A stretch of 22,310 bases of DNA from IMG/VR virus record IMGVR_UViG_3300022907_000108, positions 1-22,310 of that record. One strand, 5' to 3'. The notes under the pieces are model-generated. The model was not told the DNA's origin. It saw only the letters and a list, made by a program, of their open reading frames with translations, and searched no databases. The DNA comes from a virus. Each line of letters starts with the position of its first letter. Positions within the stretch are counted from its first letter, which is position 1. Below are positions 1,983-19,438 of the stretch, piece after piece. Made by a program: the position numbers and the translations under genes.

Positions 1983-2776
1983 TGTTTAAAGTATTATTAT
2001 TTTTGGCAGCTATATGTTTAAGTGGTTGCGCTACTGTACCTCAGATAGAGGACCCAAAACTATCTCTATCTCCGTTACAAGAAAAATTTGATAATATAAA
2101 AAAATTAGACGGACCTGAAATTACAATTGCTGTATATCAATTTACAGATAAGACAGGTCAAAGAAAACCAAGTGATAAGTTTTCACAATTAAGTAGTGCT
2201 GTCACACAAGGTGCTGAAGTATGGGTGATAGACGCATTACAAAAAGTAGGTAATGGGACTTGGTTTCAAGTTGTAGAAAGAATTGGATTAGATAATCTAA
2301 TCAAAGAAAGACAGCTGATAAGATCAACAAGAGAACAGTATGAAGAAGAAAAATCTAAAAGATTAAAACCTTTAAAGTTTGCTGGTCTTATACTTGAAGG
2401 TGGTGTTGTAGGTTATGACTCAAATATCGCAACTGGCGGTGCTGGTGCTAGATATTTGGGCATTGGAGTACAACAACAATATAGAGTTGATAACGTAACT
2501 GTTTCAATGAGAGTAGTAAGTGTTTCTACAGGAGAAGTCTTACTCACAGTTGCTGTTGAAAAAACTATATTATCTGTTTCATACGGTTCATCTGTATTTA
2601 AGTTTTTAGATTTAGGTACAAGAGCAATAGAAACTGAAACAGGAGTAACAAAAAACGAACCTGTTAATTATGCTGTAAGAGCAGCTATAGAACAGGCCGT
2701 AGTAGAAATTATATTACAAGGCGAAAAAGAAGGCCTTTGGAAATTTAAAGAGGAGAAAAAAGTAAATGTTAAATAA
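1982..2776 (+). CDS. csgG: CsgG-like outer-membrane curli secretion channel lipoprotein
   Basis: The 264-residue lipoprotein (lipobox LSGC, Cys16) matches E. coli CsgG (277 aa) along its full length. Landmarks are TIAVYQFTDKTGQRKP, WFQVVERIGLDNLIKERQLIR, LILEGGVVGYDSNIATGGAGARYLGIG, RVVSVSTGEVLLTV, KTILSVSYGSSVFKF and the C-terminal GLWKF. CsgG forms a nonameric 36-strand barrel that passes unfolded curli subunits across the outer membrane. The loop that forms the channel constriction (about residues 63-75, SDKFSQLSSAVTQ) differs from the Tyr/Asn/Phe ring of E. coli, so gating could differ. The gene is coupled to csgF (TAATG) and overlaps the curlin-like gene by 11 bp. No break or frameshift is seen. 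Confidence 0.93.
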   Translation: MFKVLLFLAAICLSGCATVPQIEDPKLSLSPLQEKFDNIKKLDGPEITIAVYQFTDKTGQRKPSDKFSQLSSAVTQGAEVWVIDALQKVGNGTWFQVVERIGLDNLIKERQLIRSTREQYEEEKSKRLKPLKFAGLILEGGVVGYDSNIATGGAGARYLGIGVQQQYRVDNVTVSMRVVSVSTGEVLLTVAVEKTILSVSYGSSVFKFLDLGTRAIETETGVTKNEPVNYAVRAAIEQAVVEIILQGEKEGLWKFKEEKKVNVK

Positions 2777-3479
2777 ACTGTTAATTACATTATTTGCTAG
2801 TATATTATGCTTTAACGTTTATGCTAACGACATTTATATAGAACAGGTCGGTGACGGCCTTGATTTGGACATTACACAAGACGGACAAAATAACGAAGTA
2901 GGTGACTCACTTACAGATATGATTTTAAACGGTGATAATATGACGTTTAGTATTACACAAACAGGTAACACAAACACTATTGACGCTACAATTAAAGGAT
3001 CAACTTATACAGGTACTTGGGCTTTTACAGGTAACTCAAACACAGTTGATTTACTTTGTAGCTCTACATCATCAGGAGATTGTGATACTGTAACACTTAA
3101 TATCACTACAACAGGTGACAACAACACCTTTGATTTTGATATTGGTGAAACTACAGACGCTTCATCATCTACAATTAGTTTTACACTTACAGGAGATAAC
3201 AGCGTTATCGCTGCTGCTGTTGACGGTGTAAGTGCTAATATATCTGTAACTTCAGATAACTCATCATCATTAGCAACAACTTCAGCAAATTCAGATGAAG
3301 GTAATGCTATTACTTTAGATGTTGATGGAGATGGCGATAGTGCTGGTCACGGCATTACAATCAATGTTACTGGCGGTGGAGGAACTATTGATGTTACACA
3401 ATCTGGTATCTATGACAACACAGTAGATTTAGATGTAACTGGTGATAGTTTTGATATAGACATAACACAATCGGATTAA
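2766..3479 (+). CDS. Curlin-repeat (CsgA/CsgB-like) secreted protein 1
   Basis: The 237-residue protein has a signal peptide (cleavage near NVYA/NDI). The mature chain is low-complexity, rich in Asp, Thr, Ser, Asn and Gly, with imperfect repeats of the type I-T-x-x-G-x-x-N-x-I/V (ITQDGQNNEV, ITQTGNTNTI, ITTTGDNNTF). These resemble the Q-x-G-x-x-N strand-turn-strand repeats of CsgA and CsgB. It is strongly acidic, and Gln is often replaced by Thr. One Cys pair sits mid-chain (CSSTSSGDC). The mature N-terminus NDIYIEQVG recurs in the gene at 4636. A strong GAGGAG precedes the ATG. Lying directly after csgG, it is the expected export substrate. Amyloid formation is inferred. Confidence 0.78.
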   Translation: MLNKLLITLFASILCFNVYANDIYIEQVGDGLDLDITQDGQNNEVGDSLTDMILNGDNMTFSITQTGNTNTIDATIKGSTYTGTWAFTGNSNTVDLLCSSTSSGDCDTVTLNITTTGDNNTFDFDIGETTDASSSTISFTLTGDNSVIAAAVDGVSANISVTSDNSSSLATTSANSDEGNAITLDVDGDGDSAGHGITINVTGGGGTIDVTQSGIYDNTVDLDVTGDSFDIDITQSD

Positions 3480-3573: not shown

Positions 3574-4636
3574 TTCTGCTCTTGCCTCTATTGGTAAAGT
3601 AAGCGAACATAAAGGCAAGGCAGAAATAGATAGAAAAGACGGTGACAAAGGTATCACTATTCAAAAAGATGTTGAAGTCTTTTCATACGATACAGTAAAG
3701 ACAGGTGATGGCCGTACAGGTATCACCTTTGTTGATGACACTAAAGTTGAGTTAACGGAACACTCAAAGTTAGTCATTGACGAGTTTGTTTATGACCCTA
3801 ACACCAACACAGGTGCGTTATCATTAAAGGCAAGTTTAGGAAGTGTAAGATATGCTTCAGGTCAGATTGCCAAAAATTCAAAACAAAATGTAAAGATTAG
3901 TACACCAACAGCCACAATTGCTGTTAGAGGTACTGACTTTGCTATGATTATAGATGAATTAGGTGGTTCTACTATTTTATTATTACCAAGTTGTGATACA
4001 AATGGTTTATGTTATGTAGGAGAGATAAGTGTAGAATCAGATGCTGGTCAAGTTATAATGAATCAGGCCTTTCAAGCAACAAGAGTTGAAGCACCAGAAG
4101 CAAAACCATTTAAACCTATTTTAGTAGATGTTGATGAAAGTATGATTTCAAATCTACTTATCTTATCACCACCATCAAACTTAAATACAGATGAGGCAGT
4201 AGAAGAAAAGAAAGCAGTTGCTGATGTTTTAGATATTGATTTTTTAGAAATAGATGTTTTAAACGAAGATTTACTAGCAACAAAAGATGATGATAACTTT
4301 GAAGAATTGGATATTGACTATCTAGCACAAGATTTTTTAGCAGATGTATTAGACCAAATTAACAAAGTATTAGCAGAAAGTTTTTTAAGTGAGTTAACAG
4401 ATGTATTTGTAAAGAAGAAACAAAAAGTAGGACAAGACGAGTTAACAGGTATTATTATTATTGACCAAGGAACATATTGGGAATTTAGACGAGAAGATAC
4501 AACTAACTTTGTACGATTAAAATTAAGTAAATCAAGTGAGTATGTTATTAATCTGTCACAAGGTGATTTTATAACAAGAGATTATATTGTAGGAGATGGA
4601 GGAGGTCTGAATAATATAGACCTATTACAACGATAA
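3530..4636 (+). CDS. FecR-domain periplasmic protein in the curli cluster
   Basis: The 368-residue protein has a signal peptide (cleavage near NSALA/SIG) and a FecR-like domain at about residues 45-145: GDGRTGITFVDDTKVELTEHS, then a beta-rich stretch with SLGSVRYASGQ and STPTATIAVRGTDFAM, the usual end of the domain. The second half is acidic with DIDFLEID/ELDIDYLAQD-type repeats, and a beta-rich tail follows. FecR domains sense or transmit signals in the periplasm, and stand-alone FecR proteins are often encoded beside CHASE2 cyclases, as here. The gene shares a one-base overlap (TAATG) with the next gene. It could instead be a structural or fibre-associated protein; the partner is unknown. 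Confidence 0.8.
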   Translation: MRILNFIILLIVISNSALASIGKVSEHKGKAEIDRKDGDKGITIQKDVEVFSYDTVKTGDGRTGITFVDDTKVELTEHSKLVIDEFVYDPNTNTGALSLKASLGSVRYASGQIAKNSKQNVKISTPTATIAVRGTDFAMIIDELGGSTILLLPSCDTNGLCYVGEISVESDAGQVIMNQAFQATRVEAPEAKPFKPILVDVDESMISNLLILSPPSNLNTDEAVEEKKAVADVLDIDFLEIDVLNEDLLATKDDDNFEELDIDYLAQDFLADVLDQINKVLAESFLSELTDVFVKKKQKVGQDELTGIIIIDQGTYWEFRREDTTNFVRLKLSKSSEYVINLSQGDFITRDYIVGDGGGLNNIDLLQR

Positions 4637-5448
4637 TGTATAAATTTTTAAAAAGATTAACAATCTGGTTATTTGTATGGATGGTTTTTTATTCTATCAT
4701 AGATAAAGTAAAAGCCAATGAAATTTATATTAGTCAAGCTGGCACAGGTAATGATGATACAACCATTAATGTAAACCAAGAAGGCGAAGACAATAAAGTA
4801 GATATGTCAATAGGTGGTACGGATAATACTATAACGTTTGAACAAAAAGGTGATGATGGTTATATTGGATATACTTCATTATGGGGAAGTGGATATAGTT
4901 GGGGTGGGGATTTAGATGGTAACGATAATAATTTAAACATCAAACAATACTGTAATCAAACACCTTGTGGTGGAGATAGATTTGAATTTCATATTTCAGG
5001 TAATAGTAATGATGTGGATTTTTATCAAGGTTATAGAGTTTATTCTGATGGTTCATTAGATACGATAGATGATTACGAATATGGTGGTCATTTTGTAAGA
5101 TTAGATATTCACGGTTCAAATAATACATTTTTAGGAAGTCAAAGGTCAAATAATTCAGGACACGAACATAGCAATACAACTTACATTTATGGAAATAATA
5201 ATGATGTTTTTACTGTACAATGGGGCAATCAGGACAAGACATTGAATTTGACTATAAATAATTCTGATAATGATGTTGATATGATTCAAAAGGGTAGTTC
5301 ATCTCATAGTGCCACAGTTTCAATAACAGGTAGTTACGGTACAGATTTAGATTTACTACAACAAGGTGGTACAGCACAATCATATTCACTTACACAAGAT
5401 TGTCAAACATTAGGAGGCTGTTCAGTTTCGGTGACACAAGGTAATTAA
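4636..5448 (+). CDS. Curlin-repeat-like secreted protein 2
   Basis: The 270-residue protein has a basic, hydrophobic N-terminal signal (cleavage near KVKA/NEI) and a mature start NEIYISQAG almost the same as that of the first curlin-like protein. Imperfect strand-turn repeats with G-x-x-N follow (INVNQEGEDNKV, GTDNTITFEQKGDDG, ISGNSNDVDF, SGSNNTF-like units, YGNNNDVFTVQ), ending in SVSVTQGN. A CNQTPC pair and a C-terminal pair (CQTLGGC) are present. It is rich in Asn, Asp, Gly, Ser and Tyr, as in amyloid subunits. Two different curlin-like proteins recall the CsgA/CsgB major-subunit and nucleator pair. Which is which cannot be told from sequence. Confidence 0.72.
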   Translation: MYKFLKRLTIWLFVWMVFYSIIDKVKANEIYISQAGTGNDDTTINVNQEGEDNKVDMSIGGTDNTITFEQKGDDGYIGYTSLWGSGYSWGGDLDGNDNNLNIKQYCNQTPCGGDRFEFHISGNSNDVDFYQGYRVYSDGSLDTIDDYEYGGHFVRLDIHGSNNTFLGSQRSNNSGHEHSNTTYIYGNNNDVFTVQWGNQDKTLNLTINNSDNDVDMIQKGSSSHSATVSITGSYGTDLDLLQQGGTAQSYSLTQDCQTLGGCSVSVTQGN

Positions 5449-18569: not shown

Positions 18570-18930
18570 AAACGAAAATAACGTTATATTGTTTCCTAAG
18601 GTACCAAAGGTAAGACCTAATCAAAAGGCACAAGAGTTAGATGCTAAAAGACAGGAAATGATAAGACTACAACATAATAAAGTTTATGTACAGGCATTGA
18701 ATGATGATATTACTGAAGATATTTTAATGAAGTTAAAAGACGAAAACTTTAATTTAACAGACCCAACATTTTTGAAAGATTATAAACTTTTTACCGAATC
18801 AATTAGGTCGTTGTTGCTAAGACAAGTAAAGATGAAACATCCTTTACATGAAAGAGTTGATAATGCTGTAACAACAAAGGGTGAAGGTAAAGATGTATAT
18901 GCCATTACAATTGATTATAAAAAGTTTTAA
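18553..18930 (+). CDS. Hypothetical protein, T4-like marine phage type
   Basis: The 125-residue protein (ATG at 18553, in-frame ATG at 18559) has an N-terminal VILFPKVPKVRPN segment, a helical charged middle and a C-terminal half with ITEDILMKLKDENFNLTDPTFLKDYKLFTESIRSLLLRQ. This layout resembles small proteins of unknown function in T4-like cyanophages (a short basic N-terminus, then a helical domain with I-R-S-L-L). No enzymatic motif is seen. Its end is followed by the structured leader of the winged-helix gene. Confidence 0.7.
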   Translation: MLMTNKNENNVILFPKVPKVRPNQKAQELDAKRQEMIRLQHNKVYVQALNDDITEDILMKLKDENFNLTDPTFLKDYKLFTESIRSLLLRQVKMKHPLHERVDNAVTTKGEGKDVYAITIDYKKF

Positions 18931-18933
18931 AGA

Positions 18934-19020
18934 ATTCCATAAAGCACTTTGGAATACTATGAATGCTACAACGTGCCTAGTATTCAATAGTTTAAATGAG
19001 GCACATTATATAATAAGGAG
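18934..19020 (+). promoter_or_regulatory. Structured leader with overlapping inverted repeats
   Basis: Three helices can form in the 97-nt spacer. ATTCCA/TGGAAT (18934-18939 with 18950-18955) and GAATACTA/TAGTATTC (18952-18959 with 18978-18985) share bases and exclude each other. GTGCCT (18973-18978), mostly inside the second loop, pairs with AGGCAC (18999-19004), giving a possible H-type pseudoknot. AAGGAG (19015-19020) follows directly, so access of ribosomes to the 19028 gene could be controlled. The motif does not match a riboswitch I know. Confidence 0.55.
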
Positions 19021-19027
19021 TGAATAA

Positions 19028-19360
19028 ATGTTTAAATCATTATTCTCAAACGATTCAATGAAAATCGTATCAAAATCAAAAAAAACATCTACAAGAGGTA
19101 GAAAAACTTTGTCAAAAAGACAAAAAGTTTTAAACCTTTTATCAAAAGGTGCACCAGTATCTTGGAAATCTTTAAGAACTAAATTCGATTTAGGTTCACC
19201 AAGAGCTTTAATTGATACATTAAGATCAGAAGGAAATATGATCTATGTTAATCAAACTGCTAAAGGTACTTCTTACAGAATGGGTCAACCAACAAAAGCG
19301 ATTATCGCTGCTGGTATCCAAAAGTTATACGGCACTCCGTATGCTTACAAAAATGCGTAA
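19028..19360 (+). CDS. Small winged-helix-like protein, conserved in T4-like marine phages
   Basis: The 110-residue basic protein has a low-complexity Lys/Ser/Arg N-terminus (to about residue 28). A helix-turn-helix or winged-helix core follows: TLSKRQKVLNLLSKGAPVSWKSLRTKFDLGSPRALIDTLRSEGN, then a wing IYVNQTAKGTSYRMG and a helical C-terminus IIAAGIQKLYG. Proteins of this pattern are common in T4-like marine phages and appear to bind DNA. Its structured leader and good ribosome binding site suggest strong, regulated, possibly autogenous expression. Regulator versus chromatin-like role is open. Confidence 0.75.
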   Translation: MFKSLFSNDSMKIVSKSKKTSTRGRKTLSKRQKVLNLLSKGAPVSWKSLRTKFDLGSPRALIDTLRSEGNMIYVNQTAKGTSYRMGQPTKAIIAAGIQKLYGTPYAYKNA

Positions 19361-19378
19361 TCTCTCTCTTTAAAAACG

Positions 19379-19386
19379 CATAAATA
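19379..19386 (+). promoter_or_regulatory. Late-type promoter motif CATAAATA before 19439 gene
   Basis: CATAAATA fits NATAAATA. The +1 would be at 19392, leaving a 47-nt leader that contains the GC-rich hairpin and a strong GAGGAGGG. This is the leadered variant of the late motif. Confidence 0.5.
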
Positions 19387-19394
19387 AATGTAGA

Positions 19395-19411
19395 GGCGGC
19401 CTTGTGCCGCC
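19395..19411 (+). other. GC-rich hairpin in leader
   Basis: GGCGGC-CTTGT-GCCGCC is a 6-bp all-GC stem with a 5-nt loop in very AT-rich surroundings. It begins three bases after the predicted late +1, so it would form the 5' end of the mRNA. There is no T-run, so a terminator is less likely than a 5' stabiliser. Confidence 0.6.
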
Positions 19412-19438
19412 CTTACATAACAAAATGAGGAGGGCAAT

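Follow-up and report, generated by a model that had tools for sequence, protein, structure and literature searches.

The closest described counterpart of the element reported here is the gene 32 operator of the T4-like phages T4 and RB69, a leader pseudoknot upstream of the Shine-Dalgarno (SD) sequence whose shape is kept though its sequence diverges; each of the two diverged operators is repressible by either phage's gp32 protein (PMC535899). Several unrelated leader structures, placed next to the SD, likewise stand ahead of homologous rpsO genes, which encode ribosomal protein S15 (PMC5100602). An H-type pseudoknot near the SD is also found in the preQ1-II, SAM-II and SAM-V riboswitches, and structured RNAs occur in the related phages Melnitz and Mosig as glnA-type glutamine riboswitches, which in Melnitz are described alongside the tmRNA gene (PMC9004378). 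One study that looked for known riboswitches in pelagimyophages and cyanomyophages detected none (PMC7029224).

We analysed a stretch of 22,310 nucleotides (the window) from the genome of a T4-like pelagiphage, whose ribonucleotide reductase shares 83% identity with the enzyme of Pelagibacter phage Mosig. The hosts of pelagiphages are the most abundant bacteria of the ocean, yet to our knowledge almost nothing is known of post-transcriptional control in these phages. In the window, a leader of 97 nt (18931-19027) separates the stop codon (18928-18930, plus strand) of an upstream gene of unknown function from the ATG of a winged-helix (wHTH) gene (19028-19360, plus strand), a 110-aa ORF of unknown function that belongs to PHROG 4973 and is the predicted target of the leader.

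An earlier note on this DNA had likened the leader to that of T4 gene 32. The likeness holds as an analogy, but the gene downstream encodes a winged-helix protein and not gp32, the product of an ssb gene. Moreover, the wHTH leader has an extra hairpin (P1) with an invariant loop, a larger stem and a pseudoknot nearer the SD, and while gp32 binds its operator, binding by the wHTH protein is putative. The rpsO leaders serve a ribosomal protein rather than a phage gene, and, unlike them, the leaders studied here keep a common plan of P1 plus H-type pseudoknot. From the preQ1-II, SAM-II and SAM-V riboswitches they differ in that they have no Rfam match, leave the SD outside the pseudoknot, are confined to phages and precede a non-metabolic gene, and the glnA-type riboswitches are not reported at the wHTH gene and gave no Rfam match to the wHTH-gene leaders searched.

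That the element matches no known motif, as the earlier note had supposed, is borne out by Rfam 15 (including SAM-II, SAM-V, preQ1-II and the glutamine RNAs), in which the window had no match at the gathering score; the best sub-threshold match (E 0.66) scored 18.5 bits, where 55.5 are needed. An Rfam search of the homologs gave no leader match, and no description of the motif was found in the published literature searched. There is also a large-scale survey of candidate viral structured RNAs, which might list it.

Structure of the leader

All elements of the fold lie on the plus strand. The hairpin P1 (18934-18955), which begins 3 nt after the upstream stop codon, pairs AUUCCA (18934-18939) with UGGAAU (18950-18955) around a 10-nt loop, UAAAGCACUU (18940-18949), whose positions are each conserved at 94-100%. 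P2 (pseudoknot stem 1; 18956-18991) starts at the base immediately 3' of P1, without overlap, and consists of 12 bp (18956-18959/18988-18991 and 18960-18967/18979-18986) with A18987 bulged. Within the P2 loop (18968-18978) lies the 5' strand of the pseudoknot helix, GUGCCU (18973-18978), whose partner, AGGCAC (18999-19004), ends 10 nt 5' of the SD, AAGGAG (19015-19020). The whole is a hairpin followed by an H-type pseudoknot in which the P2 loop is base-paired to positions 11-16 nt 5' of AAGGAG; the SD, which also precedes the gene in relatives, stays outside the pseudoknot, and the spacing between the two is 2-13 nt among members.

When scored with pseudoknots allowed, the window leader reached 42.2, compared to 23.6 ± 3.1 for dinucleotide shuffles, none of 60 of which was as good; the same test across relatives gave no equally good shuffle among 60 in 43 of 57 leaders. 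Nested folding of the single leader, in which pseudoknots are not considered, was not significant (z -1.3, with 21 of 200 shuffles equalling it). The T4 gene 32 operator has UUAAA/UAAA repeats separating its pseudoknot from the start codon. Read directly from the window, the wHTH leader has no such repeats in the corresponding interval, but its pseudoknot loop contains UUUAAA and its P1 loop UAAA.

Relatives and leader types

Relatives were gathered by a protein search (80 loci) and by a search with a 19-nt P1 core (101 contig stretches); a second protein search (alignment A1) returned largely the same contigs. The element is present in about 100 IMG/VR contigs, one copy per phage, as 57 distinct leader sequences, and the downstream gene is the same wHTH gene in every pattern match where it is readable. 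Its carriers are a group of marine SAR11-type phages. Covariance models detected a single significant copy per record in nine phage records, among them contigs of 166 and 171 kb, each time at the wHTH gene, and no significant copy in HTVC008M, Mosig or Melnitz; a weak match in Mosig (at 44688) is antisense inside a coding region and was dismissed as chance. A genome scan of 257 Gb revealed no genuine bacterial copy, its matches being due to chance except for one phage-like contig, L187 (NYSS01000113.1). This contig, on which the phage leader and gene are present, is binned in a Planctomycetota MAG and is probably a misbinned phage contig.

The leaders fall into types according to the pseudoknot helix. 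Type A, to which the window belongs, has GUGCC/GGCAC and type B has UGGCA/UGCCA, so that four base pairs are shared and only their strands have changed places; rarer helices are GUGUC/GACAC (L086), GGUAUC/GAUACC (L098), AUGCC/GGCAU (L085) and UGAGCA/UGCUCA. On the gene tree, the distribution of types A and B needs seven changes, at least four of them forced by well supported branches, and wHTH genes up to 99.4% identical carry different types. This swapping of leader types between near-identical genes suggests that the fold, and not the sequence of P2, is what matters.

Covariation

Type B (31 sequences, alignment A2) and type A (21 sequences, alignment A3) were aligned separately and compared with shuffle and slide controls. 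In type B, 96.2% of cells were paired and both sides had changed at 10 of 21 pairs, a covariation score reached by none of 500 shuffles; when partners were moved by 1-3 columns, pairing was only 22-44%. Type A gave 92.3% paired cells and both-side changes at 11 of 24 pairs, again with a covariation score that none of 500 shuffles attained. P1 was paired in 100% of cells in both alignments, double changes affected 8 of 12 P2 pairs in A3 and 9 of 10 in A2, and the pseudoknot helix was paired in 91.5% (A3) and 96.1% (A2) of its cells. RNAalifold, unprompted, predicted P1 and the core of P2 in both alignments. Compensated pairs were found even between rows differing at five columns or fewer, and a scan for variants of the central P1 pair yielded four contigs, all upstream of the wHTH gene and all compensated (C-G to G-C in two, to A-U in two). 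Helix cells held G-U far more often than A-C in type B (65 vs 5) and, more weakly, in type A (17 vs 9), an excess that indicates a sense-strand RNA.

On this comparative evidence, which we regard as decisive, the leader fold is kept by selection on the plus strand and is tied to one gene, making it nearly certain that the leader controls that gene, and P2 and the pseudoknot helix are free to vary in sequence provided that pairing is kept. The earlier note had proposed a pseudoknot with cis-regulation, to be checked by covariation in leaders of related phages and refuted by a lack of compensatory changes; such changes are abundant and, with the linkage to one gene, they support the proposal. 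Two of the three pairings it had drawn, the inverted repeat ATTCCA/TGGAAT and the link GTGCCT/AGGCAC, are real and correspond to P1 and the pseudoknot helix. The second inverted repeat, GAATACTA/TAGTATTC (18952-18959/18978-18985), is present and does overlap the first, but it is out of register: as a helix it showed no double changes and did not beat shuffles, in contrast to the corrected P2. In the correct register the overlap vanishes, leaving the suggested switch between overlapping repeats without support.

Two other candidate pairings were rejected. A switch between UUCC of the P1 5' arm and GGAG of the SD is predicted in many members, but it is lost in those whose P1 pair is A-U or G-C, while P1 persists. 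Pairing of GCAC in the P1 loop with GUGC in the P2 loop is possible only in type A, the type B loops reading UGGCA.

Since covariation is strong, the target gene is obvious, and compensatory variants as well as leader swaps occur in nature, the function of the leader family is directly testable; the family would be an example of an RNA shape outlasting RNA sequence.

Leaders of distant wHTH homologs

Mosig-type wHTH genes, about 48% identical, have different leaders that are unrelated in sequence. One class of 18 sequences combines a long P1 with a 4-bp stem and a 3-bp pseudoknot joining the loop to the SD side; 97.6% of its cells are paired, and both sides have changed at 12 pairs, including all three pseudoknot pairs (variants GAG/CUC, GCG/CGC and GCA/UGC). 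A second class, of eight sequences, carries a conserved CGCC(N6)GGUUGUAAAAU downstream of AUUCC/GGAAU or AUUGC/GCAAU, and its pseudoknot is only partly supported (72% of cells paired). Searching the Mosig-type leaders with the R2 model gave nothing convincing (best E 2.7), so that by this test they are analogous in plan and not sequence homologs. In L306, L309, L311, L317, L328 and L351, P1 and then AUCGCC(N6)GGUUGUAAAAU precede wHTH homologs, with no Rfam match; this second conserved leader class has the appearance of a small structured RNA in its own right.

The wHTH homologs of HTVC008M and Melnitz are without the element, and Melnitz is among the leaders that, on inspection, have promoter-like TTGACA/TATTAT in its place. 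By eye, TTGACA...TATTAT also lies directly 5' of the wHTH gene, with the pseudoknot leader absent, in L174, L326, L356, L358 and L366. L326, a viral contig with a wHTH homolog, also carries a tmRNA gene (permuted/alphaproteobacterial type) and a tRNA at 391-664.

Proposed function of the element

Winged-helix domains usually bind DNA. The AlphaFold (AF2) model of the wHTH protein has the HHH-beta-beta order of a winged helix, with modest confidence (mean pLDDT 60.5), preceded by a basic N-terminal tail rich in K and R. Foldseek gave no confident match to the model; on a second look the best structural match was Stf76 (Z 6.4), tied with other winged helices. Stf76 is reported to bind sites in its own promoter.

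We tentatively prefer, while being close to evenly divided about it, the reading that the leader acts in cis to control translation of the wHTH gene and is bound by a protein, in all likelihood the one encoded by that gene. In the mRNA, the SD is directly preceded by the folded P1 and H-type pseudoknot; a protein would recognise the near-invariant P1 loop as an identity mark and the pseudoknot as a shape, and once bound would block 30S initiation at the adjoining SD. Translational control is suggested by the position of the pseudoknot, next to the SD but not enclosing it, and recognition by a protein is suggested by the near-invariance of the P1 loop. The likeliest partner may be the basic wHTH protein itself, which would then repress its own synthesis; this further step draws on the precedents of T4 gp32 and S15, and on the element being phage-specific, single-copy and located at a gene of nucleic-acid-binding type. 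Against an operator for a protein stand the two leader types at genes 99% identical and the unrelated Mosig-type leaders, which a sequence-reading protein would need to tolerate, as well as the HTVC008M and Melnitz homologs without the element, the modest confidence of the winged-helix fold and the usual preference of such domains for DNA. It is conceivable, though we doubt it, that one winged-helix family keeps P1 and a loop-to-SD-side pseudoknot over at least three sequence-unrelated leader classes, with cassette exchange, implying autogenous control by shape. If true, a winged-helix protein acting by RNA shape would constitute a new class of RNA-binding translational repressor.

The upstream flank bears on an alternative that needs no ligand. 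Of 35 distinct upstream ends in which an ORF is recognisable, 34 have their stop codon either 0-3 nt ahead of P1 or within the P1 loop, a placement that is constant although the upstream genes differ and are unrelated, and inspection of these ends revealed no shared promoter-like sequence. Both observations would fit translational coupling or insulation, whereby the upstream ribosome melts P1, the pseudoknot limits independent initiation and wHTH output tracks upstream translation; however, genome compaction also yields short spacing, and the near-invariant 10-nt P1 loop is left unexplained, and we judge this account unlikely, if worth weighing. A function in mRNA stability or processing, with P1 and the pseudoknot protecting the 5' terminus of a processed transcript of the wHTH gene, or defining it, strikes us as quite unlikely: a simple hairpin would suffice, and such a function would call neither for a conserved P1 loop nor for a pseudoknot constantly placed next to the SD, although a stable structure does stand 5' right after the upstream gene and a U-tract hairpin lies 3' of the gene in some relatives.

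It is very unlikely that the element is a metabolite riboswitch of the preQ1-II or SAM-II kind, with an H-type pseudoknot beside the SD. Its topology and near-invariant P1 loop would suit one, and SAR11 and related phages use riboswitches (PMC9004378), but it has no Rfam match, no bacterial copies and a single gene context, ahead of a DNA-binding-type protein; in addition, the unpaired bases around the pseudoknot mostly differ between types, and the leaders of homologs are unrelated. Recombination exchanges leader types between genes, as might be expected of a DNA-level element such as an operator or a recombination or replication site; yet the type B set has its sense-strand G-U bias, and covariation of a pseudoknot would be meaningless in double-stranded DNA. 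Nor do the helices resemble an intrinsic terminator, which is a GC-rich hairpin with a U-tract behind it: they are AU-rich, and neither P1, P2 nor the pseudoknot is followed by a run of U. We regard a DNA-level element or a transcription terminator as highly improbable.

Downstream region and other genes

Immediately 3' of the wHTH gene (19360-19438), the window has a box, CATAAATA, and a strong hairpin (TGTAGAGGCGGCCTTGTGCCGCCCTTACA), followed by a DUF6433 gene. In many relatives the box reads TATAAATA and resembles a T4 late promoter, and the hairpin before the DUF6433 gene is highly variable in sequence, with its pairing apparently kept; other relatives have a hairpin and U-tract downstream of the wHTH gene instead. 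Elsewhere in the window, two ORFs (2766-3479 and 4636-5448) contain GDNNT-like repeats similar to those of curli-subunit proteins; curli pore genes have been reported in related phages (PMC9004378).
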